The notes under the pieces: model-generated
What the model saw: only the letters and a program-made list of their open reading frames with translations
Database searches by the model: none
What the model was told of the DNA's origin: nothing
Source: Flexilinea sp.
GTDB taxonomy: Bacteria > Chloroflexota > Anaerolineae > Anaerolineales > Anaerolineaceae
Assembly: GCA_017432685.1 (NCBI GenBank)
Contig: JAFRIR010000028.1
Span: forward strand, 1-45,314
DNA length: 45,314 nt
Reading direction: 5' to 3'
Made by a program: the position numbers and the translations under genes
In this document: piece by piece, positions 5,175 to 41,665 of the stretch
Position numbering within the stretch: the stretch's first letter is position 1
Layout of the letters: each line of letters begins with the position of its first letter

Positions 5175-5780
5175 ATGAAAATATTGATTGGAACAAATAA
5201 CGCGCACAAAGCGCAGGAGATCCGCGACATGCTGCCGGAACATGAGATCGTACGGCCAAAGGATATCGGTTTGGACCTGGACGTGGACGAAAACGGCAAA
5301 ACCTTTGAAGAGAACGCGCTCATCAAAGCCCGTGCCTTCGCCAAAGCCTCCGGCATTGTGACCCTGGCGGATGACTCCGGTCTGGAAGTGGATTGTCTGA
5401 ACGGTGAACCCGGGATCTACTCCGCCCGTTATTGTCCCAAGCCCGGTGCCGATGACGCAGACCGGCGGCAATATCTGCTCCAAAACATCCGTGCATGCGG
5501 AGCGGAACGTCCCTGGCACGCCCGTTTTGTCTGCGAGATCGCAGTCGTTTTTCCGGGGGAGCACCGCACCATTCTTTCCCGCGGGACCTGTGAAGGGGAA
5601 ATCATCCCGGAGGAAAGAGGTCACTCCGGTTTCGGCTATGACCCGATTTTCTACAAACCGGACAAGGGAATGACCCTTGCCGAAATGACCGAAGAAGAGA
5701 AAAACGCCATCTCCCACCGCGGGAATGCGGTCAAAAAAATCGCGCCGCTGCTTGCGGAAGTCGAGGCGAATGAAGAATGA
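5175..5780 (+). CDS. rdgB: XTP/dITP diphosphatase (non-canonical purine NTP pyrophosphatase)
   Basis: Hydrolyses dITP, XTP and ITP to monophosphates, keeping deaminated purines out of nucleic acids; cytoplasmic house-cleaning enzyme of the HAM1/RdgB family. The 201-aa product has the family landmarks in order: ILIGTNNAHKAQEI at the N-terminus, LADDSGLEVDCLNGEPGIYS around 69-88, GFGYDPIF, and SHRGNA near the end. I chose ATG 5175 rather than an in-frame upstream ATG at 5085: it matches the family N-terminus and length and follows AAAGGATTATACAG. It has its own promoter at 5098-5126 and is probably co-transcribed with the serine dehydratase 77 nt downstream, although the gap is a heptamer tract. 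Confidence 0.95.
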   Translation: MKILIGTNNAHKAQEIRDMLPEHEIVRPKDIGLDLDVDENGKTFEENALIKARAFAKASGIVTLADDSGLEVDCLNGEPGIYSARYCPKPGADDADRRQYLLQNIRACGAERPWHARFVCEIAVVFPGEHRTILSRGTCEGEIIPEERGHSGFGYDPIFYKPDKGMTLAEMTEEEKNAISHRGNAVKKIAPLLAEVEANEE

Positions 5781-5848
5781 AGGATGTAGGATGTAGGATG
5801 TAGGATGTAGAATGCAGGATGTAGAATGCAGGATATAGGAAACAGGAG
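5780..5848. repeat. Heptanucleotide tract (GGATGTA type)
   Basis: Repeats of GGATGTA, drifting to GAATGCA and GGATATA, fill the spacer between rdgB and the serine dehydratase gene. Confidence 0.85.
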
Positions 5849-7076: not shown

Positions 7077-7139
7077 TCAGGTGTCAGGTATTAGGTATTA
7101 GGTGTTAGGTTTTAGGTTTTAGGTTTTAGGTTTTAGGAA
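7077..7139. repeat. Heptanucleotide tract (TTAGGTN)
   Basis: About nine units drifting from TCAGGTG and TTAGGTA to TTAGGTT, ending TTTTAGGAA directly before the ATG of the next gene, so the last unit is the only purine-rich stretch available as a ribosome-binding site. Confidence 0.85.
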
Positions 7140-12255: not shown

Positions 12256-12364
12256 GTAGGGGGTAGGAATTAGGAGTTAGGAGTTAGGGATTAGGGGTTA
12301 GGATTTAGGGGTTAGGGATTAGGGATTAGGAATTAGGATTTAGGAGTTAGTGGTTAGTGGTTGG
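12253..12364. repeat. Longest heptanucleotide tract (TTAGGNN, about 16 units)
   Basis: Near-continuous units GGAATTA, GGAGTTA, GGGATTA, GGGGTTA, GGATTTA, drifting to GTGGTTA at the 3' end. It fills most of the gap between the GH2 and binding-protein genes. Confidence 0.9.
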
Positions 12365-27362: not shown

Positions 27363-28697
27363 CTATTTTATTGCATTAATCGGGATGTCATCAAGCATTT
27401 GCTGAATAAACCAGGAGCCATTGGCGAGCAGCTGTGTGGACTCGCCGTCATCCGTCACACGCAAAAAACCTTTTGCGATCCACCTTTGGAACAGGCTCAG
27501 AGCACTCTCCGGTCCCAGGATAGAAACAAACGGCTCGGGCAGGGGATGTCCGCTGCGGACCTCCCGCTCCAGACGGGCATAAAGACTTTCCGCATCAGTA
27601 CGCTTCAACCCACCCAAAAGGCCGGGATTCCCATTCACTATACCTGCACGATATTCGTCCAGTTCCGCGTGACGGTAAAGGAAATCACCAAAATAACCGT
27701 CCGCGATCGTCCCAAAGGAGAGCAGGTCTTCTCCGCGGGAAGGGGAGGTAAAATAGCGGTTATCGTCCCGTCCCTTGGCCATATGGTTATAGATCTTCAG
27801 CCGGAACCCGTGCTTCTCCGCCAGCCAGAAGGCGTATTGATATTGCCGCCACATCGCGGTGATGTCCGGATCGAGGATACCGTGGTGCTCAAAGAAAGCC
27901 CGGTTGCGCGGCGAACGCACCAATTCATAGATCGAAAAACCTTCCACACCCGCAGCGGTCAATTCCGCAACATCCGCGAGGATGTCCTCTTCCTGATAGT
28001 GCGGCAGCCCGATGATGATGTCCGTACTGACGGTCCAGCCGCTCTCCACCGCATAGCGTATCTTTTCGAGGACCTGCTTGCCGGGTTCTCTGCGGCCGAT
28101 CGCCCTGCGGATGGGGTCGCACAGGGTCTGGGTTCCGACATGCAGCCGGGTGAAACCAATTTGCATAAGGTCATCCAGAACTTTTTCGTTAAGGTCTGAA
28201 GAAGTTGACTCAAGAGCTAATTCTGTACTTTCATTAAGCTTAAAATATTCCCGGATCCTATCCACCACACGGCACAAGCCATCGACACCGATGGTCAGCG
28301 GGGTACCGCCGCCAAAATGAACAGTCGAGAGTCGTTTTTTCCTCAGAGTGGGATTGTCCCTGCCCCACAGGCACACCTCCTGCTCCAGATATCCGGGATA
28401 ATCAGCCAGTTCCGGCGCCCGGGAAGGAGTCAGCGGAAAGGAATAACAGTCACAGTAACCGCAGCGGGTTCGGCAGTAGGGGACATGAGCGTAGATACAG
28501 AAAGCTTCTGCGGGGGACAAGGCGGCAGCGGCCTTTACCTCATTCAGCAGTTCCGACCCGGATGAGGTCATGGGACGCCGCGCCCAGAGCGGCCGCGGCA
28601 TCGCGCGTTCCCGCAGAATTTCCGGCAGCGGACGGTCATCAAAACGCCTTAGTCCGGCTTCCTGTTGTTCGAGTCTTGTTTTAAAATCGGTTGTCAT
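27363..28697 (-). CDS. HemW/HemN-like radical SAM protein
   Basis: A 444-aa radical SAM enzyme of the coproporphyrinogen-III-oxidase-like group. The cluster motif is CRTRCGYC (C75, C79, C82) with one further Cys two residues on (YCDCY), followed by VHFGGGTPL and IIIGLPHYQEED, standard for HemN/HemW. It has a 65-residue N-terminal extension. HemW proteins handle heme; HemN makes protoporphyrinogen; others are methyltransferases. No heme genes are present, and it lies downstream of a radical-SAM/CxC-protein locus, so a role as accessory enzyme there is possible but unproven. No clear ribosome-binding site precedes ATG 28697, because the upstream sequence is heptamer repeats. Confidence 0.87.
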   Translation of the reverse strand: MTTDFKTRLEQQEAGLRRFDDRPLPEILRERAMPRPLWARRPMTSSGSELLNEVKAAAALSPAEAFCIYAHVPYCRTRCGYCDCYSFPLTPSRAPELADYPGYLEQEVCLWGRDNPTLRKKRLSTVHFGGGTPLTIGVDGLCRVVDRIREYFKLNESTELALESTSSDLNEKVLDDLMQIGFTRLHVGTQTLCDPIRRAIGRREPGKQVLEKIRYAVESGWTVSTDIIIGLPHYQEEDILADVAELTAAGVEGFSIYELVRSPRNRAFFEHHGILDPDITAMWRQYQYAFWLAEKHGFRLKIYNHMAKGRDDNRYFTSPSRGEDLLSFGTIADGYFGDFLYRHAELDEYRAGIVNGNPGLLGGLKRTDAESLYARLEREVRSGHPLPEPFVSILGPESALSLFQRWIAKGFLRVTDDGESTQLLANGSWFIQQMLDDIPINAIK

Positions 28698-28845
28698 ATG
28701 CGGTAGGTATTAGGTGTTAGGTATTAGGTGTTAGGTGTTAGGATGTAGGAACTAAGGGTCAGGGACCGGGGACCAGGGGCAAGTGTTTGCTCGTCATCTT
28801 GTCGCCTACCACTGGTCCCTGGCCCCTGTTCCCTGATCCCTGATT
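28698..28845. repeat. Heptamer tracts, partly inverted
   Basis: TTAGGTG/TTAGGTA units (about 28704-28748), then GGGTCAG GGACCGG GGACCAG (28755-28779), facing CTGGTCCCTGGCCCCTG (28812-28828) in the opposite sense. Noncoding spacer between the CxC protein and HemW-like genes; the inverted pair could form a terminator. Confidence 0.75.
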
Positions 28846-30207
28846 TCAGTCCGGATACCAGTAATGAGGACCAACGCCCTCACAGGAACAATAGCTATAC
28901 CCTTCGCAGGAACAATAACTGTACCCCTCGCAGGTGCAGACCACATGTCCCACACAGGAGCAGACGTCACCGGCTACGCAGTTGCAGACGCAGACTGCCC
29001 CTTCCGGGATCGGAGAGCCGCAGGGCAGCGTATAAGTCACCGTTTGTCCGGTCACGGGATCTGTCCCTTTCACCTCGATCCCCTTGGTATCGTCCTTCAT
29101 TTCTTTAAGGTCCACCGGGCAGCCAAGGAGCTCAAAATCCGGCAGGCTGATGAACAGGATGCTCTTGTCTACAGCCACAGCGCAGGAGCTCCCATCTTTG
29201 GCAACAGCGATCGGGAGCCATTTCGCAGCGACTGTGGTCAGGCGGTGCAGCACAGCCCCGTCTTCCATAGAGACCAGGACGATCTCCTTATCCGTCCCGC
29301 CAAGGATGCCATAGCTTCCATCCGGTGTAACAGCCGCGGACAAAATGCTCTGGTCCAGATCCTTTTTCCAGATCACATGCCCATCCGTCAGGGAAACGAG
29401 ACGGTATTCCTCATTTCCCTTCGCGCAAATCAATGCTTTTGCGCCGCCCGGGAGGACCGCATAAACCGCATTGGGGACGGCATCGGTTCCAACATAATTC
29501 TGAATCGTCCCTGACTGAACGTCGAAGATACTAAAACCCTTCTGCCGCAGGATGAACAAATACCGGCCGTCACTCAGGACTGTGATATCCTGAAATTTAT
29601 TATCTTCCGAGATCTCATAGAGCTTTTCCTGGTCAGTATAGCTGAAATCCCCTTCCCGGTTCAGCTTGAAGATCACATTTCCCGTGACACCGTAGATATT
29701 GCCATGGGTATCGGTGTCCAGACCGTTGAAGCTGCTGGTTTTCACGACATTTACTTTGATCGATCCGGAAGAGGTTTCCTTCAGCTCCGGCAAAAGGAGC
29801 GGACGGATCGAACTGGAACCGCCCATGAGCGCCAGTGAGTTCCCGTTGATGAAAGCCATGGCGAGGAGCTCTTCGTTAATGTCCTTCGCCTTCTCGCTTT
29901 TCTCCAGTGCATGGGAGCTATAATCCCAGCATTTCTGCTGAGAAGCACTGTCAAAGGAAAAGAGATGTTTTCCGTCTGCAGAGATCATCAAGTCAATGAT
30001 CGTGTTTTGATGTGCCGGGGCGGATTTGCACAGCGTCGTCAGGTCCGAGGCGGCATGTGCCGGTTTGACAAAGCGGGTGTTCATCCCGACACCCATCACG
30101 GCGGCACCGAGTCCGGCCGCTTTCAGAAAATCCCGGCGGCTGAGCTGCCAGGTCATTCCATCCTGCCGGAGCGCGTAAACCTCCGGACGCTCGTTTTTGT
30201 TGGTCAT
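28846..30207 (-). CDS. Tat-exported beta-propeller protein with CxC octapeptide tail (candidate modified precursor)
   Basis: A 453-aa protein. The N-terminus is a twin-arginine signal (SRRDFLKAAGLGAAVMG, 23-39), so it folds before export. Residues about 60-385 are WD40/YVTN-like blades (ADGKHLFSFDSASQ, DGRYLFILRQKGFSIFD, PDGSYGILGGTDKEIVLVS). The C-terminus is extraordinary: after a TLPCGSPIPEGAVCV linker come octapeptides CNCVAGDV, CSCVGHVV, CTCEGYSY, CSCEGYSY, CSCEG (408-444), ending VGPHYWYPD. Eleven cysteines in about 40 residues, strictly spaced CxC-x5. It is the only Cys-rich peptide encoded among four radical-SAM genes and an RRE-like gene, so I infer that the tail is their substrate. 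Alternatively it could bind a metal or Fe-S cluster unmodified. AAAGGAG precedes ATG 30207. Upstream lies an 840-bp repeat array, so it may have a separate transcript. Confidence 0.9.
   Translation of the reverse strand: MTNKNERPEVYALRQDGMTWQLSRRDFLKAAGLGAAVMGVGMNTRFVKPAHAASDLTTLCKSAPAHQNTIIDLMISADGKHLFSFDSASQQKCWDYSSHALEKSEKAKDINEELLAMAFINGNSLALMGGSSSIRPLLLPELKETSSGSIKVNVVKTSSFNGLDTDTHGNIYGVTGNVIFKLNREGDFSYTDQEKLYEISEDNKFQDITVLSDGRYLFILRQKGFSIFDVQSGTIQNYVGTDAVPNAVYAVLPGGAKALICAKGNEEYRLVSLTDGHVIWKKDLDQSILSAAVTPDGSYGILGGTDKEIVLVSMEDGAVLHRLTTVAAKWLPIAVAKDGSSCAVAVDKSILFISLPDFELLGCPVDLKEMKDDTKGIEVKGTDPVTGQTVTYTLPCGSPIPEGAVCVCNCVAGDVCSCVGHVVCTCEGYSYCSCEGYSYCSCEGVGPHYWYPD
28867..28986 (-). other. 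CxC octapeptide-repeat tail coding segment
   Basis: Codons 408-447: five units with Cys at positions 1 and 3 of each 8-residue period. Units 4 and 5 are also nearly identical in DNA (24-bp period), indicating recent duplication or conversion of units. Tyr and Gly occupy fixed inner positions in the last three units. Confidence 0.85.
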
Positions 30208-30262
30208 ATATACTCCTTTCGCGATATTAGCGTTTTTTCTTCACCTGTTCCGTATAGTGTAC

Positions 30263-30660
30263 GCCCTGGTCTGCCTTGCTGTTGCCGCGAAGCCGGCACT
30301 GCAAGTCTGCACAGCCGTGCGTCTCCGGACGTTATAGAGCATGTCCTGGTCTGCCTTGCTGCTGCCGCGAAGCCGGCACACTGCAAGTCTGCACAGCCGT
30401 GCGTCTCCGGGCATCACAGAGCACGTCCTGGTCTGTCTTGCTGCCGCCGCGAAGCCGGCACTGCAAGTCTGCACAGCCGTGCGTCTCCGGGCATCACAGA
30501 GCACGTCCTGGTCTGTCTTGTTGCTGCCGCGAAGCCGGCACACTGCAAGTCTGCACAGCCGTGCATCTCCGGACGTCACAGAGCACGTCCTGGTCTGTCT
30601 TGCTGCTGCCGCGAAGCCGGCACTGCAAGTCTGCACAGCCGTGCATCTCCGGACGTTCCA
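30263..30660. repeat. Tandem array, five units of 80/82 bp alternating
   Basis: Unit starts 30263, 30343, 30425, 30505 and 30587. Lengths run 80, 82, 80, 82 because every second unit has CACACTGCAAG in place of CACTGCAAG. Each contains CTTGC...TGCCG-CGAAGC-CGGCA...GCAAG, the hairpin of the 104-bp family in reverse orientation. The alternation implies duplication of a 162-bp dimer. No spacers, so not CRISPR. Confidence 0.92.
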
Positions 30661-30706
30661 CAATCCCGCACAGGAGTGCAGTCCTGATGTGCGGGCTGCG
30701 CCGCAG
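30661..30706. repeat. Hairpin junction between the two arrays
   Basis: AATCCCGCAC ... GTGCGGG and CAGTCCTGATGTGCGG, the left half of a structured-repeat hairpin whose right half (CCGCAGCATCAGG) begins the 44-bp array. The same junction occurs once at about 34350-34394. Confidence 0.7.
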
Positions 30707-31101
30707 CATCAGGGCAGACCTCGTGTGCTCCGTTCCAATTTGTGCAGCAGCATCGGGGCAGACCTCGTGTGCTCCGTTCCAATTTGTGCAGCAGCATCGG
30801 GCAAACCTCGTGTGCTCCGTTCCAATTTGTGCAGCAGCATCAGGGCAGACCTCGTGTGCTCCATTCCAATTTGTGCAGCAGCATCAGGGCAGACCTCGTG
30901 TGCTCCGTTCCAATTTGTGCAGCAGCATCAGGGCAGACCTCGTGTACTCCGTTCCAATTTGCGCCGCAGCATCAGGGCAGACCTCGTATGCTCCGTTCCA
31001 ATTTGCGCCGCAGCATCAGGGCAGACCTCGTGTGCTCCGTTCCAATTTGAGCCGCAGCATCAGGGCTGACTTCGTGTGCTCCGTTCCAATTTGCGCAGCA
31101 G
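30707..31101. repeat. Tandem array, nine units of 44 bp
   Basis: Units begin CATCAGGGCAGACC and end TTTGTGCAGCAG or TTTGCGCCGCAG, starting at 30707, 30751, 30795 (43 bp), 30838, 30882, 30926, 30970, 31014 and 31058. The last unit supplies the final residues and stop codon of the radical-SAM gene at 31060. With the 80/82-bp array it fills the 850-bp gap before the CxC protein gene. Confidence 0.95.
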
Positions 31102-32364
31102 CAGTTCCAGCGTGAGAGCACGGTTGATCTCACAGCGGTTATAAGGCCATTCCCCGTCCGCCGCCGGGATTCCCCGGGTGAAGCAGTCACCGGCGCAGTG
31201 ATAGTAACAAAAACACTCCGTACATCGATCCCTGCGGTGCAGGATCTCACGCATCTGCCGTATGCGCGCCTCCTCATCAATATAGATCCCTGTCTTATCG
31301 GCATGACCAAAGACCCCGCCGCACTGGCCGTCGCGGCCGGTGGTCTCGTAGCAGCCGGTCACCTGTCCCAGCGGATTGACCGTCAGGCTCTCTCCGAGCG
31401 GCGCCAGACAGAAAGCAGAATAAACACCTTCCGGGCGAGCACCGGAATAATACAAAATCTTTCCGTGCTCTCCCGCGATCTCCCGGGCATCCAGAAAAGC
31501 CCTCACAAAACGTTCTCCCTGCTTACGAAAAGCCTGCCCATGCGCCCCGCGTGACTGGAAAAAAGCCGGTTCCGCCTGGATCTCCCGGCAGCCGGTCTCT
31601 TCGCAGAGAAAGCGGACATCCTCCGGCAGCCGTTCAAAGCGTTCCGGGATCACCGTCATGCGGATGTTGAAGGGATAGCCGGCTTTTGTGAGCTGCCTCA
31701 CCGAACGCATCACCCGCTCAAAGGAAGGGCTCCCGCCCGGCAGGGGACGCTGCCGGTTCTGTGTTTCCGCGGCTCCATCCATGGAGATCGTCATGCCGTT
31801 GATCCGGTCCATCAGCCATTTGCCGTGTTCCTCTCCCCAGCAGCCGTTCGTGACAATATGGAGCAGCGAACGCAGCGGTTTCTGCCGCGCATAATCGGCC
31901 AGCTCCCGCATGGCATTCCAATGCATGGTCGGTTCCCCGCCTCCATGGAAAGTCACCGAAAAATGATCCCGGCCTGATCGCTGCGCGTTTTCGCAAACCA
32001 TATCGATCGCAAGCCGGGCCACAGCCGGATCCAGATCAAGATCATTGGTCTCTCCGCCATTGGCATAGCAGTAAATGCAGCGCAGGTTGCAGCGATTGCT
32101 CATCAGCAGTGCGGCAGAAGTCGGACAGAATTCTTTAAGGTTCGGCTCGGGCGGTTCCGGTGGGTCAGCTTTCGTGAAGCCAATGCTGTCGAAAAATTCC
32201 AGCACATCCGGCTCATCCGCAAGGACCCCACGCTCCCGGGTGTCACAAAAGCGCTGTGCACATTCCGCCATCGCACCGTTGCCCAGGAACAGCAAACCGA
32301 TGAGCGGCCTATAGATCAGGTATTTCGTCTGAAAAGGAATCAAATAAAGCGATTTCCCTCGCAT
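31060..32364 (-). CDS. Radical SAM/SPASM peptide maturase (A)
   Basis: A 434-aa radical SAM enzyme. The [4Fe-4S]-SAM motif is CNLRCIYC (C92, C96, C99), followed by FHGGGEPTMHW, VTNGCW and SMDGAAETQNRQRP. A C-terminal SPASM domain binds auxiliary clusters: FCLAP, TGCYE, and CTECFCYYHCAGDC with a final NRC. SPASM proteins modify peptides (sactipeptides, ranthipeptides, PqqE, anSMEs). The start at 32364 follows GGAGGGGATAG and overlaps the preceding gene by 56 nt, so translation is coupled. The C-terminal LLRKLERSTRSQP is encoded by the last 44-bp repeat unit, so the original stop has been replaced. Likely acts on the CxC tail of the propeller protein. Confidence 0.9.
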   Translation of the reverse strand: MRGKSLYLIPFQTKYLIYRPLIGLLFLGNGAMAECAQRFCDTRERGVLADEPDVLEFFDSIGFTKADPPEPPEPNLKEFCPTSAALLMSNRCNLRCIYCYANGGETNDLDLDPAVARLAIDMVCENAQRSGRDHFSVTFHGGGEPTMHWNAMRELADYARQKPLRSLLHIVTNGCWGEEHGKWLMDRINGMTISMDGAAETQNRQRPLPGGSPSFERVMRSVRQLTKAGYPFNIRMTVIPERFERLPEDVRFLCEETGCREIQAEPAFFQSRGAHGQAFRKQGERFVRAFLDAREIAGEHGKILYYSGARPEGVYSAFCLAPLGESLTVNPLGQVTGCYETTGRDGQCGGVFGHADKTGIYIDEEARIRQMREILHRRDRCTECFCYYHCAGDCFTRGIPAADGEWPYNRCEINRALTLELLLRKLERSTRSQP

Positions 32365-33787
32365 CTATCCCCTCCACGATAGGATCTTCATCTTTCATCT
32401 TTACTCCGGCAAAGCCATACTCCCGCGCATAATCAAGAAGCCATACTTTTGCCGTCCTCAGCAATTCCGCTTCCGTAAGCGTCCGATTGACGCGGCAGCG
32501 GAAGGAGCCGAAATCCTGCAGTTCACTGCGCTGTGCCGGACAGATATCCGGGCAGCCGCGTGAGCAATGGAAACGGTTGAAACAGCCTATACATTCCGGA
32601 TCTTCGGCTGAGAGTGTTTCAAAAATCTTCCTGTCCCAGGGCAAATTCACTCCCTTCTTTTCCGCTTCCGCCACGGAGGAAACCGCAAAGCATGCCGAAA
32701 CACCCTCCGGCGGAACCAACTGCAGTACCCTGCGAAAGCAGTGGCAATAGCGTCCATGGATCTCATCCGGCCGGCTGCCGCTGTAACTGAGTCCCGGAGC
32801 GTGCTCTTTCGCTTTCAGGAAATATTCACAAAATTCATCCGCTGCTGACAAATCCGCATCCTGCCGATAAGCAGGCTCCATACGGATCACATCCGCATGA
32901 AGAACTTCCCGGCAATATGAGGTAATTTCCGGGATCCGGGAAAAATTCTCTGGCAAAACTGTCACACGAACTGTCAGCTGTCCCTGAAATTCTCGGATGA
33001 TCCCAGCGGTCCGCTCAACGAAAGCGGAAGTGTTTCCGCCGCTCCGCAGCGGACGCTGACGGTTTTGGATATCCGGCGGGCCGTCCACAGAAAGTCCGAT
33101 CTGATCGAAATTCTTCGCGAAAAGAACCGCACGCTCTTCCGGCATCACGCCGTTCGTCGCAAGATAGGAGTAAAACGGGACCTGTTCCTGCATACTCATA
33201 GTCTTCAAATCGGCAAGCAGCTCCGGCAGCCGGGGATCCATGGTCGGTTCGCCGCCGCCATGGAAAACAACCGTAAACGATTTTTGTTCTTCTCTGCAAT
33301 TCGAAAGGATCCTTTTAGCGGCATTCATGATATGTTCCCGGGAGAGCTGAAGCGCGCTGTCCCTTTCGGGTTCCGCAAAGCAGTAGGTGCAATACAGGTT
33401 ACAGGTCAGCGAGGTGTAAAGTGTCAGGCAGAGGGGTTTGTAATTTTCCGGGCTGAGAAGAGTGTTCCATTGACTTACTGCCTGTTGAGCAAAGTTGATC
33501 AATTCTAAGGTGACGGTTTCTCCTGGAACCGTCACCCAGGAATTGATCCGTCCAAAAGGTACGGTTCCAGGGGAAACCGTCCCCTTTAGAGCTGTTCCCT
33601 TAAACCCGAAGGGGAGTTCACCGGAAAGAAGTCCCAGGATCTCCTCCGCTTCCGCCTCGCGGGCAGCGGCAAGATAGCCCGGCGCATAAAACAGCGTCAA
33701 CTCTTCAAATTGCCGCGTAAAGATCGGCAGAGCCTCTCCTTCGATTTGGCAAAACTGCAGCCGCTCAGTCAGGAATTCCCGGTTCAC
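32309..33787 (-). CDS. Radical SAM/SPASM peptide maturase (B) with repeat-derived insert
   Basis: A 492-aa relative of maturase A. Radical SAM motif CNLYCTYC (C129, C133, C136), FHGGGEPTMD, SVDGPPDIQNRQRP, then SPASM cysteines (CHCFRR, SACFA, ECIGCFNRFHCSRGCPDIC, RCRVN). Between the N-terminal domain and the barrel, residues about 62-98 (FKGTALKGTVSPGTVPFG, then NSWVTVPGETVTLELIN) are encoded by two GGACGGTT-family hairpins inserted in frame. A GTG at 33787 with GAGGTG seven bases ahead is preferred; a GTG at 33802 is the longer alternative. It overlaps the RRE-like gene by a few codons. The tryptophan/asparagine pattern shared with maturase A suggests gene duplication. Confidence 0.88.
   Translation of the reverse strand: MNREFLTERLQFCQIEGEALPIFTRQFEELTLFYAPGYLAAAREAEAEEILGLLSGELPFGFKGTALKGTVSPGTVPFGRINSWVTVPGETVTLELINFAQQAVSQWNTLLSPENYKPLCLTLYTSLTCNLYCTYCFAEPERDSALQLSREHIMNAAKRILSNCREEQKSFTVVFHGGGEPTMDPRLPELLADLKTMSMQEQVPFYSYLATNGVMPEERAVLFAKNFDQIGLSVDGPPDIQNRQRPLRSGGNTSAFVERTAGIIREFQGQLTVRVTVLPENFSRIPEITSYCREVLHADVIRMEPAYRQDADLSAADEFCEYFLKAKEHAPGLSYSGSRPDEIHGRYCHCFRRVLQLVPPEGVSACFAVSSVAEAEKKGVNLPWDRKIFETLSAEDPECIGCFNRFHCSRGCPDICPAQRSELQDFGSFRCRVNRTLTEAELLRTAKVWLLDYAREYGFAGVKMKDEDPIVEGIDAREIALFDSFSDEIPDL
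33509..33584. repeat. Two GGACGGTT-type hairpins inside a coding sequence
   Basis: GGTGACGGTT...AACCGTCACC (33509-33536) and GGTACGGTTCC...AAACCGTCCCC (33558-33584). They keep the frame of the radical-SAM gene open on the minus strand. Confidence 0.85.
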
Positions 33788-34229
33788 AGACACGCACCTC
33801 ACATAACCTTAAAAATATCGCACGAACTGTTTTCTTCGTCTTAGCCTCATCCCAGCCGGTATATTTTCGTACCTTAACAAAAACATCAGACATCTTCTGC
33901 ATGCTGTTGAACTGGTTGAAGATGAACAGTGCGGGGGAGTTCACCGCAAAAAGCGGCATGGGGTCAACGGACGCGGAGGTTTCTGCATAAACCACACCCT
34001 TTTCCAGGCTGATCTTTGCCCGACTGTTGACGATCGGCCATATCTCTGCAAATTGAACCTCATCAAAAGCAGTCAGATCTTCGATATGATAACTGGGCGA
34101 ACCGCTGCGGCTGCGGGTCCGTTCCTCCGCATTGTCGGCGGCAGCTGCCAGCATTCCCCTGCGGGAAACCCGGATGCGCATCTGTCCAGTCGGTTCCGTC
34201 ATATGGTCAAGATCGATCAGCATTTTCAT
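33765..34229 (-). CDS. PqqD/RRE-like protein
   Basis: A 154-aa protein whose C-terminal 60 residues fit the PqqD-like RiPP recognition element pattern: VNSPALFIFNQFNSMQKMSD, then VFVKVRKYTGWDEAKTKKTV and a final RAIFLRLCEVRV strand/helix, equivalent to LNxxAxxIW...TxxEIxxxLxxxY...VxxFLxxLxxxGL. RREs bind the leader or scaffold of a precursor and present it to the maturase. The N-terminal half (MRIRVSRRGMLAAAADNAEE and a basic stretch) is unassigned. ATG 34229 is preferred because GAGGGG lies ten bases upstream; a longer frame to 34421 runs through repeat DNA. Sits between radical-SAM genes C and B, overlapping B. Assignment rests on pattern, not alignment. Confidence 0.65.
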   Translation of the reverse strand: MKMLIDLDHMTEPTGQMRIRVSRRGMLAAAADNAEERTRSRSGSPSYHIEDLTAFDEVQFAEIWPIVNSRAKISLEKGVVYAETSASVDPMPLFAVNSPALFIFNQFNSMQKMSDVFVKVRKYTGWDEAKTKKTVRAIFLRLCEVRVCEPGIPD

Positions 34230-34275
34230 GATAATTCGTCCCCTCATCGAAGCAAGTGGCCCCAGCACGGAGCAC

Positions 34276-34416
34276 GCCTGGTCTGTCTTGCTGCTGCCGC
34301 GAAGCCGGCACTGCAAGTCTGCACAGCCGTGCGTCTCCGGACATCCCTCAATCCCGCACCGGAGTGCAGTCCTGATGTGCGGGCTGCGCCGCAGCATCAG
34401 GGCTGACCTCCTGTGC
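34276..34416. repeat. Single-copy version of the 80-mer + junction + 44-mer repeat
   Basis: One 80-mer-like unit (34276 on), the CCCGCAC...GTGCGGG junction, and one partial 44-mer (34395-34416), in the same order and orientation as the amplified block 30263-31101. It lies in the spacer between genes C and RRE and runs into gene C. Confidence 0.9.
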
Positions 34417-35370
34417 TTCACCCATCATTGGTTGGATCCGCCGCAGACGCGCAGCCAGACAGCCGCCGCAGCATTCTTCCGTCTCAAAAAACTGACACTG
34501 TGAACATTCCGGAAAGATTCCAAAGGAATGCCAGGGTCTTAACTTTTCATTAAAGAATTTATAAACAGACTTTGAGTTTTCAAAATCTTTAAGATTCGCC
34601 TGCATCAGGTTTGACAGAGCAAAACAGGGCAGGATGGTCCCACCTGTACACAGGTCCACCACCGGCGTACACTGTGAGCTGTAATGAAATCCGTTCGCCT
34701 GTAATTGTGCGAAGTTCCGCCCGAACATACAGCGCACAAAGCCGCAGTCAGCTTCCAGTTCGATCCCACACCCCGCGGTCAGGAAGGACTGCCCGAAAAG
34801 CGCCTGTCCGACGGCCGAATAGCGTTTCGGATGCAGGGAGCGATTCTTTCCACCCCAGGTCGGATGAGCCAAACCGATGCGGATCAACTTCCGCAAGCCA
34901 AACCTTCCGATCAGTTCCATTGCGTACCTTAAAGAAAAGTCTGCAGAAGTCAGCGTCATACCCAGCGTAACTCGCTGTCCCAGCAACGCCAAAGCATTTC
35001 TCCTGCGCTTCCGGGCTTGCTCACCAAGAGCAGCATTGAGATTTACGACCACGGTACACACATCCGGAGCAAGTGATGCCAGCACCTCCAGGGCTTCATC
35101 CGGCATACATCCATTGGTAAATACCATGATGGAAAAGCCCTCTTCCCTGCCAAGCTTAACAAAATCCGCGAAATCCGGATGCAGGGTCGGTTCTCCGCCC
35201 AGCAGCCGCAGCTCACGGATCCCGGCCCTGCGGGTAAAATCCAGATAGGAGCGCATTTCACTTTCCGCCATCTGCACCGCATCCATCCGCAGCATACGGG
35301 ACCGGGAATCTGCCGCAAAACAGAACTCACAATCCGCATTGCAAATGTTGGTGATGATCTGGTTCGCCAT
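34348..35370 (-). CDS. Short radical SAM enzyme (C)
   Basis: A 340-aa radical SAM protein whose cluster motif is almost at the N-terminus: MANQIITNICNADCEFCFA (C10, C14, C17). It continues with LRLLGGEPTLHPDF and VFTNGCMP. The C-terminal third has a SPASM/twitch-like set of cysteines (CGIELEADCGFVRC, CTPVVDLCTGGTILPC, CSQCQFFETEECCGGC). ATG 35370 overlaps the upstream stop in TGATG and follows GAGGAGCGGAATTG. The last 20 or so residues (EAQEVSPDAAAQPAHQDC, TPVRD) are encoded by the repeat at 34276-34416, so its native stop was displaced. Probable tailoring enzyme in the same system. Confidence 0.87.
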   Translation of the reverse strand: MANQIITNICNADCEFCFAADSRSRMLRMDAVQMAESEMRSYLDFTRRAGIRELRLLGGEPTLHPDFADFVKLGREEGFSIMVFTNGCMPDEALEVLASLAPDVCTVVVNLNAALGEQARKRRRNALALLGQRVTLGMTLTSADFSLRYAMELIGRFGLRKLIRIGLAHPTWGGKNRSLHPKRYSAVGQALFGQSFLTAGCGIELEADCGFVRCMFGRNFAQLQANGFHYSSQCTPVVDLCTGGTILPCFALSNLMQANLKDFENSKSVYKFFNEKLRPWHSFGIFPECSQCQFFETEECCGGCLAARLRRIQPMMGEAQEVSPDAAAQPAHQDCTPVRD

Positions 35371-36977
35371 CAATTCCGCTCCTCTGTCAATGCAGTCCAC
35401 ACTTTTTCCGCATCAACAGCCGTCATCCCCGAATGCTCCAGTTGAAAGCGCAGCGCCTCCCCGCCTTCCGGAACGCGAACAAAACTTCCAACCGTATCCG
35501 CGATCAGGATACGATCTCCGTCCCGGACCCAGCCAATTTCTGCATCTCCTGCCGCACAAAAATCTGTCAACGGGAATGGCTCCGCTACAGGATGATCCTC
35601 TGAAGCAGAAGGCCCGGCAAATGCAATGTCAGTCTCAAATCCGGGCAGAAGACTCCGGAAATCCGCGGTACCCGCAAGCCGCTCAAGAAAGGACCGGTCC
35701 AAAATCAACTGATCCGCCATGCTCTCATAACCGAGCTGCCGGAACAGCTGCCATAGCATCAAGGCCTTTGTGATGAGGCAAAAATTACCGCTTCGTTCCG
35801 CCTTCAGCACACAGCCGCCCGCACAATGCGCATAACAGAAGCACCCCCGGCAGCATTCCCGGTTCCTTTCAACCAGCTGCCGCTGAGCGTCCAGAGAATC
35901 CTGATGAATGTTCATCCCGTCTGTCCCAAGCAAACCGAAATGCAGATCCGGCTTCCCCAAGCGCTGATTTTCCGAAAGCTGCCAGCAGGATCCAATCTCT
36001 CCCTCAGGTGTAACGATCAGCGCATCCTTTCCCATCGGACATAGGGAGTTGTTAATTGAGGAAAGATCAGCAGAGGAACAAACCAGCCGGATCTTTTCCC
36101 TCTCCAAAACCCGAAAGGCATCTGCCCAGTTCCGCACAAACACATCCGCATCCGGCGGAGTCAGTTCATTTTGACGGGCCAGGTCACTTTCGATCATCGG
36201 TTCCAGACAAACCGCTTCCGGCTGGAAGCACCTTGCAATAAATGCAGCCCATCGCCCGAGACTTTCTGCATTTGCCGCAGAAACACAGGAGCGAATGATG
36301 AAATCACAGCTCCCGCGGGAAAAGATGTCCGCGCTCCGGCAAACTGTCTCAAACGATTCCCTGCCCTCCGGACCCGGACGATGACGGTTTTGCACCTCCG
36401 GAAAACCATCCAGCGAAAGTACCACGGTATCGAAATACTCCGCGATCCAGCGGGCTTTGGTTTCGGGATAAAAGCCGTTGGTCGTCACTTCAAAATGAAC
36501 CGAAGCCTCAACCTTTTCAGCCAATGACCGGGCGTAATTCACCGCGAACACCACTTCTTTGAAAGCGGCAAAGGGCTCTCCACCGAAGAAATGAATATTC
36601 CAATCGCTCCGTCCGGCATCCCGCATCACCCGGGCATAACCATCCACAGCCATGCGGATCTGTGAAAATGACATCAGCGGATGTTCCCGCACGGTTACAA
36701 AATCACAGTAAGCACAGCGCATCATGCAGCCGCGTGTCGGGACCAGGCCGAGGAAAAGGGGATCCGGCGGACCTACTCTCATTTCCGAGCGGTTTCCTGC
36801 ACCCCGAAGGGAACCGATCCATGGCGCGTCTCCCGGAACAGGTTTCGAACTGTCCCAAAGGCAGGCAAAAACGATCTCAGCCATAGTCCGATTGACCAGC
36901 GTTGTGATCCCGTGGAACGGCGCATAGATCAACACCGGTTCCTGGCCAAGCGGGAGAAACCAAACGTCTTTTGGCAT
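35370..36977 (-). CDS. Radical SAM/SPASM enzyme (D) with C-terminal extension
   Basis: A 535-aa protein. Radical SAM motif CMMRCAYC (C84, C88, C91) after an 80-residue N-terminal domain, FFGGEPFAAF, VTTNGFYP and SLDGFPEVQNRHRP; SPASM cysteines CPMGKD, GSCWQ, ECCRGCFCYAHCAGGC and NFC. Beyond SPASM, about 120 residues (from around 420) form an extra domain without a recognised fold. ATG 36977 overlaps the FGE-like stop as TGATG (a GTG one codon upstream is in frame), so translation is coupled to that gene. The QNRHRP motif recalls the QNRQRP of A and B, suggesting three paralogues. Confidence 0.9.
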   Translation of the reverse strand: MPKDVWFLPLGQEPVLIYAPFHGITTLVNRTMAEIVFACLWDSSKPVPGDAPWIGSLRGAGNRSEMRVGPPDPLFLGLVPTRGCMMRCAYCDFVTVREHPLMSFSQIRMAVDGYARVMRDAGRSDWNIHFFGGEPFAAFKEVVFAVNYARSLAEKVEASVHFEVTTNGFYPETKARWIAEYFDTVVLSLDGFPEVQNRHRPGPEGRESFETVCRSADIFSRGSCDFIIRSCVSAANAESLGRWAAFIARCFQPEAVCLEPMIESDLARQNELTPPDADVFVRNWADAFRVLEREKIRLVCSSADLSSINNSLCPMGKDALIVTPEGEIGSCWQLSENQRLGKPDLHFGLLGTDGMNIHQDSLDAQRQLVERNRECCRGCFCYAHCAGGCVLKAERSGNFCLITKALMLWQLFRQLGYESMADQLILDRSFLERLAGTADFRSLLPGFETDIAFAGPSASEDHPVAEPFPLTDFCAAGDAEIGWVRDGDRILIADTVGSFVRVPEGGEALRFQLEHSGMTAVDAEKVWTALTEERN

Positions 36978-39466
36978 CACTGCGAATCACTTACAACACA
37001 GCGGAAACCGCGGTCCAGAGCAAAAGATGACCCGAGTGCATAGAAGCGATCGACTGTCCGGGCATTATTCTCAGCGACCTGAGCAGAGCTGCCGCGGATC
37101 ACACGATACCCGCCGGCTTCCGGCCCGGTGGGATCAACCGGCTGATTCGTGACGGTGTACCAGTTCTCCTGATAACGATCCGAAACCCATTCGGAAACAT
37201 TGCCACCCATGTCATAGACGCCAAAGCTGCTCACATCCTCCGGATTGGCATCCACTGCAAGCGTATCATAGTTCCCGTTTCCGGAATAATTCAGGTTGGC
37301 AGCCACAAAAGTGTTGCCCCACGGATAGGCATTCCCCTCAGGACCCTTTGCGGCATATTCCCATTCGGCTTCAGTCGGCAGCCTGCCGCCGGCCCATTCG
37401 CAATAAGCATTGGCCTGAGACCAGTCGACATAGATCACCGGGTAATTGTCGTATTCCGGATTCCCATAGTAGGAAGGACGGCGGAAGGATTTGACCTCAT
37501 GCGGTTCCGTACAGGCACCATCCGCCACACAGAGGGCATATTGTCCATTCGTCACCTCGTAGGCGTCGATCCAGTAATCCGAAAGCGTGACTTCATGCGC
37601 AGGTTTTTCATCAATAGCACCTCTGGGATCACCCATCGTGAAAGTATCCCCGGGAATAGCAACCATCTGCGCGTCATCGGTTTTCCGCACACCGGGATTC
37701 ATCAGTTCATCGATGTTCTCTTCGCTGATCTCAAACAGTTCCGGGGTGACACTGGCCGCATCGGCAAAACAGCGGAAACCGATATTGTCAGCAGCGTGAC
37801 CCGGGAAGGTCTCCAGCAGCGTCTCCACCCCGATGGTCTCCGGATAACTGTTCCAGGCACCGCCGGCAGCAAGAGAAATATTTTCATCCTCACCGGCTGC
37901 GATCCATTCCCAGACGTTGCCCAGCATCTGCACCATGCCATAGACTGAACCGCGGGAACGATAGGATGTGACCGGGACTGTCAATGCGAGCTGGTCTGCA
38001 CTGCGAAGAGCCCTTTTGCGGTTGGTACCGACGCTGTTCACCGTGGAGGCACTCACCTTAGATCCCTCCGCAGGGGCCGCAGCTGTCTGCCACTCCGCAA
38101 GTGTCGGCAGCCGCATCCCGGCCCATTCGCAATAGGCTGCGGCATCATCGCGTGTCACAAAAACCATCGGCAGGTCCGCGGCTTTTTCGCTCAGCCCCGG
38201 ATAAGCGAATTCATCCAGCGCTTCCGGCATTTCACAGGCGCCATCCGTGACACACATTTCATATTGTCCGACACTCACCGCATAAAGAGAGGCCAAAACA
38301 TCATTTTCAGTCAGGAGCAGCAGCGAGCCATCCGCTTTTGCGATCACAGCTTTCCCGGCAGGGACCGGCAATGTGTTTTGCGTTTCATCGTCTTCCATGG
38401 TGGTGTTGACCGCTTCGGTCGGGAGCCGGTTATCTGCCTCTTCCGCCATTACTTGTTCTGTCTCTGCCGCAAGCGTTTCAATGACTACCGTCGGAGTTGT
38501 TTCTGTTGTTTCATCGGGTTTCCCGCTATCCAACCCCGTTGAACTGTCGAATTTTGCGAAAAATCCTTCGGTTGGAGTTGCTTCCGTTTTCTCTTCAGTT
38601 TGCGTCACTGTTCCCACTTCAGACTCCACCGCCGGCAGAACTTCAGCGTCAGGCAGCACCTCCGCATCAATCTCAACAGTCGGCTTTGATGGCTCCAGCA
38701 TGGAAGCCCCTTTTCCACCACTGAAAAGATCAGAGATCAGCGACTTTACATCGGAAAAAAGGGAAAACACCGCCCAATCGTTCAGAGAAGTACCCGGGCC
38801 CTTATAGGAAGCATCCTGGAATACCACCGGACCTGGGTCATGGACATCAGCCGTGAGCGTTTTTGTATCCTGAGGTCTCTCCTTCAGCGAAGCCAGGCCA
38901 CCCGCGTTCACATCCCGAAGTGCCGCCATGGCCCTTTCCGCTGTACCGTTTTGCCTGATCTGACGGTTCAGGAACCAGCCGCCCACCGCCAGCAGCGCGA
39001 AAGCAGCAAAAAACCAGCTGCCGTTTCGTGGTCTGTTCATCGCATCGATCGCGGAACCGAGCTTGCCAAGAGCCTCATTATTGGCTCCGGCCTTCTTAAG
39101 TCTGCGGACAAAATCTTCATAATTGCCCTTTTGCAGCAGCCAGATCAGCAGGATGAAGGTACCAACCACGGGGATCAATCCGACCAGCACCCACCAGCCC
39201 TTCCGCGGCAATGTGTGCAGACGCCGGACTGTTGCTGACAAAACCGGGATGACCGTCAGCAGGTAATAAAAACACCAGAGCGGCAGCACCCAGGGGACAT
39301 AAAAGGCCGGCAGCTCATAAGAGGTGTCCAGCGAAAACCGGGCTAACGGATAAAGCGGGAGGATCAAAATCAGAAAGTGCAAAATCATAGCCGACCAATA
39401 ATTTCCGCGCTTCATATAGCCGGAAAAATTCGCGTAATTCCGAAACAGACTGATATATGATTTCAT
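36977..39466 (-). CDS. DUF805 membrane protein with two FGE-sulfatase-fold domains
   Basis: An 829-aa first gene of the radical-SAM operon. Residues 1-115 form a DUF805-like membrane domain (RRLHTLPRKGWWVLVGLIPV); one more TM lies near 153-172; a Thr/Glu-rich linker (about 230-370) follows, then two formylglycine-generating-enzyme-sulfatase (FGE-sulfatase) fold domains (about 375-595 and 612-829: PAHEVTLSDYWIDAYEVTNG, GGRLPTEAEWEYAAKGPEG, YDMGGNVSEWVSD). Bona fide FGE needs a Cys pair near RGGSW/SYC; the second domain reads RVIRGSSAQVAENNARTVDR without it, so catalysis is not expected and the fold may bind ligand or protein. The C-terminal domains face outward, the compartment to which the CxC propeller is exported. 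ATG 39466 follows GGGGGG. Confidence 0.88.
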   Translation of the reverse strand: MKSYISLFRNYANFSGYMKRGNYWSAMILHFLILILPLYPLARFSLDTSYELPAFYVPWVLPLWCFYYLLTVIPVLSATVRRLHTLPRKGWWVLVGLIPVVGTFILLIWLLQKGNYEDFVRRLKKAGANNEALGKLGSAIDAMNRPRNGSWFFAAFALLAVGGWFLNRQIRQNGTAERAMAALRDVNAGGLASLKERPQDTKTLTADVHDPGPVVFQDASYKGPGTSLNDWAVFSLFSDVKSLISDLFSGGKGASMLEPSKPTVEIDAEVLPDAEVLPAVESEVGTVTQTEEKTEATPTEGFFAKFDSSTGLDSGKPDETTETTPTVVIETLAAETEQVMAEEADNRLPTEAVNTTMEDDETQNTLPVPAGKAVIAKADGSLLLLTENDVLASLYAVSVGQYEMCVTDGACEMPEALDEFAYPGLSEKAADLPMVFVTRDDAAAYCEWAGMRLPTLAEWQTAAAPAEGSKVSASTVNSVGTNRKRALRSADQLALTVPVTSYRSRGSVYGMVQMLGNVWEWIAAGEDENISLAAGGAWNSYPETIGVETLLETFPGHAADNIGFRCFADAASVTPELFEISEENIDELMNPGVRKTDDAQMVAIPGDTFTMGDPRGAIDEKPAHEVTLSDYWIDAYEVTNGQYALCVADGACTEPHEVKSFRRPSYYGNPEYDNYPVIYVDWSQANAYCEWAGGRLPTEAEWEYAAKGPEGNAYPWGNTFVAANLNYSGNGNYDTLAVDANPEDVSSFGVYDMGGNVSEWVSDRYQENWYTVTNQPVDPTGPEAGGYRVIRGSSAQVAENNARTVDRFYALGSSFALDRGFRCVVSDSQ

Positions 39467-41524: not shown

Positions 41525-41665
41525 AATGTAGATCGTAGGATGTAGAATGTAGGATTCAGGAACAAGGAACAAGGATTTATTTAGGAGATAGGATAAGGGA
41601 TATAGGAATATAGCAGATACACCTAACCCCTAACCCCCAACCCCTAACCCCTAACATCTAAAATT
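41525..41665. repeat. Heptamer tracts, inverted
   Basis: GGATGTA and GGATTCA units, then TTAGGAG/GGATAAG, then complementary CCTAACC-type units (41620-41660). Confidence 0.85.

Follow-up and report, generated by a model that had tools for sequence, protein, structure and literature searches.

A minus-strand block in the window, i.e., the whole 45,314-nucleotide stretch of Flexilinea sp. DNA analyzed here, joins several radical SAM genes to a gene for a Tat-signal beta-propeller with a Cys-rich C-terminal tail. All genes named in the original prediction are open reading frames on this strand at the positions it had assigned. The extent given for the block (28846..39466) was too short, since a fifth radical SAM gene, E, had been missed; E is part of the block because its family is found in 24 tail loci, including the window.

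36977..39466, minus strand: 829-aa protein with a DUF805 segment and two FGE-fold stretches (Pfam FGE-sulfatase 250.9 bits, DUF805 62 bits, both above cut-off)
35370..36980, minus strand: radical SAM/SPASM enzyme B, SCIFF-maturase/PapB-like (SCIFF maturase 96.9 bits, cut-off 425)
34348..35400, minus strand: radical SAM enzyme C with SPASM-like cysteines (Pfam Radical_SAM 56 bits; cysteine patterns)
33765..34229, minus strand (open reading frame to 34421): predicted RRE-fold protein, 154 aa (first ATG of the conserved part; AlphaFold2 and Foldseek)
32309..33802, minus strand: radical SAM/SPASM enzyme D (Pfam Radical_SAM above cut-off)
31060..32364, minus strand: radical SAM/SPASM enzyme A, core class (best NCBIfam match PapB, 112.6 bits, cut-off 340; class A in trees)
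28846..30207, minus strand: carrier with Tat signal, beta-propeller, and Cys-rich C-terminal tail, 453 aa (Pfam, NCBIfam, AlphaFold2, Foldseek)
30169..30186, minus strand: putative leader motif PEVYAL, with its P at position -16 relative to the twin arginine (motif count in carriers vs controls; P8 nearly invariant in A3)
30052..30138, minus strand: twin-arginine signal RRDFLKAAGLGAAVMG... (TIGR01409 32.5 bits, cut-off 16.7; R24 and R25 invariant in A3)
28969..29034, minus strand: conserved tail core YTLPCGSPIPEGAVCVCNCVAG (22-column identity)
28876..28962, minus strand: variable CxC repeats CSCVGHVV-CTCEGYSY-CSCEGYSY-CSCEG (window open reading frame; family repeat unit)
28849..28866, minus strand: C-terminal motif HYWYPD, family consensus YW[YH]PN (motif class in 40/68 loci)
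27363..28697, minus strand: radical SAM enzyme E, HemN/HutW-like (HutW 168.7 bits, cut-off 400; outside the originally predicted block)

Radical_SAM scored above the Pfam cut-off in A, B, C, and D. The four genes thus stand as predicted, but C, described as a short enzyme without SPASM beside three SPASM-bearing ones, carries a SPASM-like cysteine set (CTPVVDLCTGGTILPC and CSQCQFFETEECCGGC in the window), the first half of which is present in 27/27 class C proteins and the second half in 24/27. The last ~20 codons of C lie in repeat DNA. D is fused to E in four loci (L044, L047, L075, and L081). Every enzyme family scored far under the NCBIfam cut-offs, and the named families closest to the core enzymes, all below cut-off, were the thioether-forming maturases PapB, QhpD, and SCIFF/CteB. 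For the two enzymes of class S scanned, these were QhpD (135.9 bits) and PapB (134.4 bits) for L042, and PapB (129.7 bits) with QhpD third (111.7 bits) for L056; the best solved-structure match of the A/S profile was CteB (5wgg, E = 2.3e-48). The DUF805/FGE gene had been counted as part of the system: it is real, but it is a lineage-specific accessory rather than a core component, found at the identical position in six clusters, all of one genus. Read by eye, its C-terminal FGE stretch bears RGSSAQVAENNARTVDR at what we take to be the place of the active-site cysteine pair of aerobic FGE.

The proposed PqqD/RRE-like gene was borne out by structure prediction. This small protein had no Pfam or NCBIfam match, yet its AlphaFold2 model (pLDDT 85.1) is predicted to adopt an RRE fold: Foldseek matched it to lasso B1, the PbtF RRE, and PqqD with probability 0.99–1.00, TMt 0.65–0.80, and E 0.013–0.05, with no match reaching E 0.001 and with chains of an unrelated mycobacterial methyltransferase in the two top rows. 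The best solved-structure match of the family profile was PqqD (3g2b, E = 0.0048). The 5′ part of its open reading frame (33765–34421) is repeat DNA, and the protein probably starts at 34229, not 34421. It carries a ~60-residue N-terminal extension in which an Arg-Arg pair is invariant across 22 aligned members. A 98-aa protein of locus L015 reached 15.3 bits for the PqqD Pfam (cut-off 23.4). A stand-alone PqqD gene is absent from the window, and fusion of a PqqD part to enzyme B was unsupported (0.4 bits).

In the window carrier, TAT_signal scored above the Pfam cut-off and the propeller models below it. The AlphaFold2 model (mean pLDDT 72.8) is confident in the propeller and falls below 50 at residues 1–16, 18–51, and 396–453; its best Foldseek matches were WD40-type propellers, the top one 7-bladed and designed. 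The carrier has the features of a Tat substrate, i.e., an RR motif with a hydrophobic segment (TIGR01409 above cut-off) and a TatC (196 bits) in its own genome. The anatomy originally proposed was incomplete, as a putative leader upstream of the Tat motif had been missed. In 52/66 Tat-bearing tail proteins vs 0/18 control Tat proteins, a PEVYAL-like motif precedes the twin arginine by exactly 16 residues, as scored with a regular expression composed after inspection of these same proteins, and with controls drawn entirely from the window’s genome and its relatives, some of them mutually similar. The same motif at -16 occurred in 0.04% of shuffles. From this register, the motif is likely to be a leader.

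The window tail, CVCNCVAGDVCSCVGHVVCTCEGYSYCSCEGYSYCSCEGVGPHYWYPD, had been described as a series of CxC repeats. Such repeats are present in the window, but the CxC-x5 repeat varies across the family and is absent from some tails, and the conserved parts are instead the PCGSPIPxGAVCxCNCVxG core and the C-terminal HYWYPD. Across 30 proteins, mean pairwise identity was 0.81 for the tail core (22 columns) vs 0.34 for the propeller (301 columns). The family repeat unit, derived from 243 CxC occurrences in tails, is C[ST]C[VNDQ]x[VHIY], with V, N, D, Q, I, M, E, or L directly after CxC in 239 of the 243 cases. Tyr, Trp, His, and Cys are all conserved in the tail. [YH]-P-[NDT] stands at the C terminus in 40/68 loci, one of them with YRYPN; the window ends in YPD, unlike the YPN of the family. 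Some tails have few Cys, e.g., that of the first carrier of L015.

The propeller is not what defines the substrate: setting aside one frame-split propeller, 15/85 tail proteins had no propeller match (three of them truncated, one with an SH3 domain). Carrier open reading frames with a Tat signal span 238 to 1246 aa. A single tail type on several carrier types, a conserved extreme C terminus (YW[YH]PN), and a lipobox-like site in 27/66 carriers would all suit a sorting or anchoring tag comparable to PEP-CTERM, modified and perhaps cleaved or surface-attached after Tat export. We consider this very unlikely, as some tails are internal, with another domain downstream (L036, L043, L061, and L066), and as inspection by eye revealed no processing enzyme beside the tail except an M20-like amidohydrolase in 3 loci (L033, L034, and L037).

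The tail was found in 67 loci of other genomes from at least 11 phyla (assigned from record titles, which include Ca. Scalindua, Nitrospira, Accumulibacter, and many Chloroflexota), with Chloroflexota and Acidobacteriota supplying 37 of the 67 and several loci near-identical or from one assembly. Because of this recurrence and of a second complete cluster on contig C3 of the same genome, the observation is more than chance. A classified radical SAM gene shared the locus with the tail in 59/68 cases, and a radical SAM gene was present in 61/70 once two truncated genes were included together with two loci whose tails are not in the table. The idea that radical SAM enzymes act on a tail carried by a Tat-exported propeller is partly upheld, as a gene association across at least 11 phyla, but not with the propeller as the defining carrier.

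In the remaining 9/70 loci, the tail lacked a radical SAM gene within the fetched stretch, which is partly covered by contig ends (within 0.2 kb in 4 of 9) or by enzymes elsewhere: six of these genomes matched the core-enzyme profile at other positions, four strongly (one a fragment) and two near 1e-29, perhaps from other classes. The profile had no match in the other three genomes. G013 has a 111-residue tail remnant in which two core cysteines are replaced, and it lacks a core-type enzyme; G108 has the tail within a 62-residue open stretch with the core intact, and in G103 the tail runs into unread bases. Of these three, L089 is the one listed with an intact core. Conversely, among 101 relatives, a close A homologue (E < 1e-100) was present in five, none of which lacked the tail; the tail was present in six, the sixth being G013. 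Enzymes without a visible tail were seen in G003 and G017, where the clusters extend to contig ends.

The 9/70 loci without a radical SAM gene in the fetched stretch, the few Cys in some tails, and the frequent use of CxC clusters as metal ligands are consistent with an unmodified metal-binding or disulfide-bonded appendage whose neighboring radical SAM enzymes modify something else. This is unlikely, as no alternative substrate recurs. The 2389 short open reading frames around the genes of 68 loci yielded no recurrent small Cys-rich precursor (5 families occurred in 3 or more loci, none Cys-rich among the members listed), and neighbors of ≥75 aa in families found in 3 or more loci, read by eye, offered no other candidate, comprising E, kinases, transporters, and the like. 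The sole same-genus genome without a core enzyme has a tail remnant minus two core cysteines, and the leader-like motif keeps a fixed spacing before the Tat signal. Ending modules also track enzyme class, though from few independent changes.

Specifically, class A (29/40), class C (27/40), RRE (30/40), and PqqD (24/40) were all found in YW[YH]PN loci vs 0/28 of the others, as was the E family (24/40, window included, vs 0/28, or 1/28 counting a weak L042 match, E = 1e-35, that was left out). Of the YW loci, 38 have a classified enzyme, and each of these has at least one of classes A–E, while the C-terminal YW[YH]PN is absent from all 21 S-only loci; a CxC[VMILF][PA][VI] module occurs in 19/24 loci with S and 2/35 without. 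This correlation amounts to about 3–4 changes on the core-enzyme tree, and the independent pairs number only 2–3, all concordant and with no statistical force.

The tail could also be modified into a redox cofactor or electron-transfer site, as with CTQ in quinohemoprotein amine dehydrogenase or PQQ from PqqA, rather than a structural crosslink. The rank of QhpD among the NCBIfam matches of the two scanned S enzymes (first for one, third for the other), the PqqD/RRE partners, and the conserved Tyr, Trp, His, and Cys point in this direction. We find it quite unlikely, however, as no recognizable oxidoreductase is found among the carriers (WD40-like propellers, SH3, or linker proteins), as the Trp-Tyr motif is missing in S-only loci, and as no dehydrogenase subunit was noticed by eye among recurrent neighbors.

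We favor, with a probability of about 0.68, a RiPP-like protein tailoring in which the carrier tail would be crosslinked by leader-guided radical chemistry in the cytoplasm before Tat export. The observed anatomy, gene association, putative-leader register, predicted RRE fold, and ending/enzyme match point to this reading; from them we infer that the tail is the substrate, what kinds of bond form, in which order the steps run, and any link between maturation and export. The leader segment would sit directly ahead of the Tat twin arginine, with the Cys-rich core at the other end of the protein, its C terminus. This leader may be held in the cytoplasm by the RRE-fold protein, by N-terminal parts of the enzymes themselves, or by both while SPASM radical SAM enzymes take hydrogen from tail residues to form crosslinks. 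By analogy with the related QhpD, PapB, and CteB, the most likely bond would be a thioether that ties a Cys in a C-[ST]-C-[VNDQ] unit to an Asp, Asn, or aliphatic side chain close by. In a multi-enzyme version, B, C, D, and E with PqqD/RRE proteins would work at the C-terminal YW[YH]PN, where [YH]-P-N may form an aromatic-to-Asn three-residue cyclophane. The folded, crosslinked protein would then be exported by Tat, probably as a lipoprotein in part of the family.

A bolder version, which we advance tentatively and judge less probable than not, would make this a widespread and undescribed protein-scale RiPP class, whose leader is built into the Tat n-region and whose core is at the other end of the folded carrier. 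Separate radical SAM sets would write separate C-terminal modules (S for CxC[VI]P[VI], A–E with RRE/PqqD for YW[YH]PN), and the RRE protein, by the twin arginine, would delay Tat export until the tail is finished. Our literature searches returned no description of radical-SAM-tailored tails on exported proteins. If tailoring of this kind is real, radical SAM peptide chemistry would reach beyond small natural products and, in many phyla, complete the tails of large proteins bound for export, the Tat signal would double as a RiPP leader, and matched enzyme/motif modules would be at hand to crosslink the C terminus of a folded protein. It would also provide a natural test of whether Tat export awaits chemical modification. 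The named strain Flexilinea flocculi TC1 (L025) has the full gene set, and the system is therefore testable.

Among known systems, QhpD works on QhpC in the cytoplasm, prior to export, where it forms Cys-to-Asp/Glu thioethers, and the interaction needs an N-terminal leader (PMC7876137). QhpD/QhpC (TIGR03906) resembles the present system as a SPASM radical SAM enzyme acting on a protein, and QhpD ranks near the top of the NCBIfam matches for class S. However, class S reaches 135.9 bits at L042 against a 453-bit cut-off, and the other enzymes scanned score less; QhpC is a small ABC-exported subunit, whereas the carrier here is large, exported by Tat, and tailed at its C terminus, and QhpA, QhpB, QhpE, and QhpG were not noticed by eye among recurrent neighbors. 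Ranthipeptides (PapB/freyrasin, CteB/thermocellin, and SCIFF), in which Cys is joined to Asp, Glu, Asn, or Thr (PMC11002830), share maturases that are the best matches of A and B, although neither cut-off is reached (PapB 112.6 vs 340 bits; SCIFF 96.9 vs 425). They differ in that no short Cys-rich precursor recurs here, the putative leader and core lying at opposite ends of a folded Tat protein, and in that many loci here have several enzymes each. For triceptides, the consulted part of the same source gives Tyr and His as known aromatic partners and Asn as a known acceptor, with the Tyr/His-Asn pairing not seen there (PMC11002830). The tail [YH]-P-N would fit the aromatic-x-Asn pattern, but no scanned enzyme was closest to triceptide families (YhhB 57.7, AmcB 54.6, and GrrM 48.2 bits at best vs cut-offs of 310–445). 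As in PqqD/RRE-guided RiPP pathways, a small predicted RRE-fold protein adjoins the radical SAM genes, although it is divergent, with an N-terminal extension and no Pfam match. Overall, modifying enzymes are encoded together with the candidate precursor (radical SAM in 61/70 loci), and this gene system, recurrent in many phyla, is probably a large relative of the small modified peptides known as RiPPs, with tail crosslinking that would precede export.

Overall, the minus-strand gene block described in the original prediction is present in the window as stated, and all of its genes have family-library support with the exception of the small RRE protein. Beside the radical-SAM genes A, B, C and D, the features considered here are:

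27363-28697, E, a fifth radical-SAM gene, HemN/HutW-like
28846-30207 (-), the carrier, a Tat-signal beta-propeller with a Cys-rich C-terminal tail (a core and CxC repeats, ending in HYWYPD)
33765-34229 (-), the RRE protein, small, with a predicted RRE fold
36977-39466 (-), the FGE/DUF805 gene

For the carrier, the Tat signal scored above cut-off and the propeller matches below. An AlphaFold2 model (30 aligned proteins) gave a confident propeller with low-confidence ends (pLDDT <50 for residues 1-16, 18-51 and 396-453), and its best Foldseek matches were WD40-type propellers, led by a 7-bladed designed one. The window's own genome encodes TatC and holds a second complete cluster on another contig (C3). 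We rejected the FGE/DUF805 gene as a core component because it lies within the block only in six same-genus clusters (the window, the C3 copy, L025, L026, L100 and L103); weaker FGE matches also occur in L047, L038/L087 and L058.

GC-rich tandem arrays with 82- and 44-bp units lie between A and the carrier gene (30261-30657 and 30703-31103), with a further GC-rich repeat unit at the C/RRE junction (34385-34417). The two intergenic arrays were rejected as part of the system, since units like those of the second are scattered over the genome (103 candidates, of which 40 places were scored) and lengthen some reading frames. Short arrays of TAGGTGT-like 7-bp units are also found in the window (5777-5840, 7086-7137, 12257-12362, 28704-28742, 41622-41655 and others).

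Next, we evaluated the spread of the tail, using a ten-row tail alignment and two short peptide patterns on one genome per species (84,980 species). The 93 stretches that matched yielded 67 distinct confirmed loci, a count that includes four from one Bryobacterales assembly as well as the overlapping L038 and L087. By record title, these loci belong to Chloroflexota (21), Acidobacteriota (16), Pseudomonadota (9), Bacteroidota (6), Thermodesulfobacteriota and Verrucomicrobiota (3 each), Armatimonadota, Nitrospirota and Planctomycetota (2 each), Actinomycetota and Nitrospinota (1 each), with one unassigned; one more tail is found on a plasmid of Ca. Chlorohelix allophototropha. A viral spread was rejected, none of 106 pattern matches being confirmed as a tail.

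The tail forms its own family. Among 30 aligned proteins, mean pairwise identity was 0.81 in the 22-residue tail core vs 0.34 over 301 propeller columns. A propeller profile matched 69 of 85 tail proteins (L087 included); of the 16 without a match, three (L030, L031, L040) are truncated and one (L038 9689) is a frame-split propeller. The remaining 12 are clear non-propeller proteins, near-identical pairs included, of which that of L029 carries an SH3 domain. The alternative that the tail is part of the propeller only was rejected on these 12. Downstream of the core, variable units follow the pattern C-[ST]-C-[VNDQ]-x-[VHIY], with the residue after CxC (243 occurrences) being V 99, N 50, D 47, Q 20, I 7, M 7, E 5, L 4, A 3 and H 1 times. 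In the carriers of the window, L015 (12200), L029 and L042, the tail had no match to any Pfam or NCBIfam model; for the L036 carrier, the family matches considered were the best 25 of 68. Separately, an extra C-terminal domain follows the tail in L036:7508-10570, L061:7541-10621 and near L089:10156, and presumably resembles the intramolecular chaperone of phage tail spikes (peptidase S74).

Radical-SAM proteins were classified from a FastTree of 149 sequences, cut by hand into A, S (the class of single-enzyme loci), B, C, D and E; the placement of a few rows is unsure (S?, B?), and 8 of 157 matches lacking CxxxCxxC were set aside. Classes A and S are the core enzymes. The two class S enzymes scanned matched QhpD and PapB well under cut-off (135.9 and 134.4 bits for L042, 111.7 and 129.7 bits for L056), and the best matches of A and B were PapB or SCIFF maturases, again well under cut-off. 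The closest solved structure to the A/S profile was 5wgg (E=2.3e-48), given in the available text of PMC7876137 as CteB. Gene C, originally read as lacking SPASM, does have SPASM-kind cysteine groups, and a PqqD domain fused to the C terminus of the window's B was tested and not supported. E occurs in 24 loci, window included and a weak L042 match left out. It is apparently fused to D in four loci (L044:15453-18248, L047:9388-12156, L075:2539-5001 and L081:9869-12880), where both families matched, with two Radical_SAM stretches in L047; E is therefore tied to the system.

We examined 70 loci (the window, L015, L016, L021 and L023-L089, with L087 dropped as overlapping L038, here and in the ending, module, tree, leader, CxC and short-ORF counts). 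The main table holds 68, as L071 and L089, with no tail ORF of at least 60 aa detected, were read separately. A classified radical-SAM gene lies within the fetched stretch in 59 of the 68, and in L072 and L082 the radical-SAM gene is cut by the contig end. The expected pairing of tails with radical-SAM neighbours failed within the fetched stretch in 9/70 loci (L021, L027, L041, L064, L068, L071, L077, L088 and L089), four of which (L041, L068, L071, L077) have the tail ≤0.2 kb from a contig end. At the genome level, a core-enzyme profile gave a match in six of the nine, as strong matches (G101, G105, G107), a strong fragment (G102) or matches near 1e-29, perhaps to other classes (G104, G106). 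This profile had no match in the genomes G013, G103 and G108. In G013, of the same genus, the tail is a 111-residue remnant (L021:8622-8957) with two core cysteines replaced (PEGAEIP for the family PCGSPIP, CNS for CNC); in G103 (L064) it runs into unread bases; and in G108 (L089) an intact core lies inside a 62-residue open stretch, which therefore points to decay or assembly error.

The converse pairing, of the enzymes with a CxC protein, stood for close A homologues, found only in genomes with the tail: among 101 relatives, six genomes carry the tail, and a close A homologue (E<1e-100) occurs in five of these and in no other. The RRE protein occurs in seven of the 101; in the two additional genomes (G003 and G017), the clusters extend to a contig end, with no carrier gene seen. 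In the G017 cluster, a 139-aa gene that we take to be TatA/TatB-like (L099:6900-7319) sits between radical SAM B and a PqqD-like gene, and another gene (L099:10421-10939) looks by eye like one in the cluster of G014 (L020:14239-15165).

A separate small Cys-rich precursor was considered as a rival substrate. Among 2389 ORFs of 22-85 aa from the 68 loci, five families recurred in at least three loci, some by eye resembling other frames of longer genes, and none was Cys-rich among the members listed; single short ORFs with at least 5 Cys numbered 107 (40 of them listed). Within this scope, such a precursor was rejected. Longer neighbours (at least 75 aa, clustered by BLASTP, with families in at least three loci read by eye) comprised E, protein kinases, transporter parts, an M20-like amidohydrolase (3 loci) and others. 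A defence system was likewise rejected, the PADLOC matches being viperin against the radical-SAM fold only (24.8-58.2 bits).

The RRE protein received no name from Pfam or NCBIfam. Its model (22 sequences, pLDDT 85.1) comprises four strands, then three helices, with a short strand last. Foldseek returned nothing at E 0.001 or better: the top two rows were chains of a mycobacterial methyltransferase (TMt 0.21), followed by leader-bound lasso B1 proteins, the PbtF RRE and PqqD (probability 0.99-1.00, TMt 0.65-0.80, E 0.013-0.05), and the best solved-structure match of the profile was PqqD 3g2b (E=0.0048). A small PqqD-like protein of other loci, below the Pfam PqqD cut-off, was not seen in the window. 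An Arg-Arg pair in the RRE protein (window 34158-34163) is invariant across the 22 aligned members, precedes a helix and looks like the twin arginine of the presumed client.

Next, we compared tail endings with enzyme sets. The C-terminal motif YW[YH]P[NDT] occurs in 40/68 loci (once as YRYPN); these include the PqqD-like protein in 24, C in 27, the RRE protein in 30, A in 29 and E in 24, while the other 28 loci hold none of the five, one weak E match (L042) apart. Where a YW locus has a classified enzyme (38 loci), at least one of A-E is always present, and the motif is absent from 21/21 loci with S as the only class. The module CxC[VMILF][PA][VI] is found in 19/24 loci with S vs 2/35 without, in a test confined to loci with a classified enzyme. 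Both modules stand in series, CxC[VI]P[VI] then YW[YH]PN, in L049, L059, L027, L071 and L087, including two of the three S+B+C loci (L049 and L059, not L038). Fisher P values for ending against enzyme set were 5e-8 to 5e-11, but the loci lack independence. The core-enzyme tree (53 rows) shows three changes of the ending and four of the extra genes, and the 2-3 independent pairs all agree, short of significance. Correlations across loci rest on few events, and we take the match of ending to enzyme set as suggestive.

When carriers were aligned on the twin arginine, a PEVYAL-type motif appeared at a fixed place, and is likely, from its sequence register, a leader. It starts exactly at -16 in 52/66 Tat-bearing tail proteins (no RR match was found in 14 of 83, several truncated or split, with L038 1202 counted here because the regex does not capture its DRRAFW; of three false RR matches that were removed, one, L067, has the motif further on). 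Among the 66, 14 lack the motif at -16, and most of these show by eye a variant there or immediately alongside. The motif was found at -16 in 0/18 readable tail-less Tat proteins from the own genome and relatives (33 Tat loci, 13 without a readable RR frame and 2 carriers) and in 0.04% of shuffled n-regions. In a first control of 12 ORFs inside the loci, three carried it, all L038 propeller proteins with tails that lie past the end of the locus or in a different frame. Because the regex, [PASE][EQRKA][VIL][YFVHDL][APSDGT][VLIR], was composed after seeing the same proteins, near-identical loci were counted apart and some controls are alike, more weight falls on the register, which stays fixed across many phyla.

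Taken together, we infer that the tail is crosslinked in the cell under guidance of the putative leader, with Tat export following. Thioethers would be the likeliest bonds, and a [YH]-P-N cyclophane at the tail end is a bolder guess. According to the available text of PMC11002830, the partner of Cys in ranthipeptides is Asp, Glu, Asn or Thr, whereas triceptide enzymes link an aromatic residue (Trp, Phe, Tyr or His) with the one two positions later. Titles and abstract openings of the matches listed contained no description of the present arrangement, and five motif strings had no match in the papers searched. A Bacteroidales RiPP survey groups a radical-SAM enzyme with QhpD and ranthipeptide maturases, the terms 'WD40' and 'propeller' being absent from its available text (PMC10352776). 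Peptide conflict systems, as far as the available part of PMC7159879 describes them, bring together peptides, propellers and radical SAM in arrangements other than the present one. For QhpD, the available text of PMC7876137 describes three Cys-to-Asp/Glu thioethers formed in QhpC in the cytoplasm, before export, with a 28-residue QhpC leader required for the interaction.
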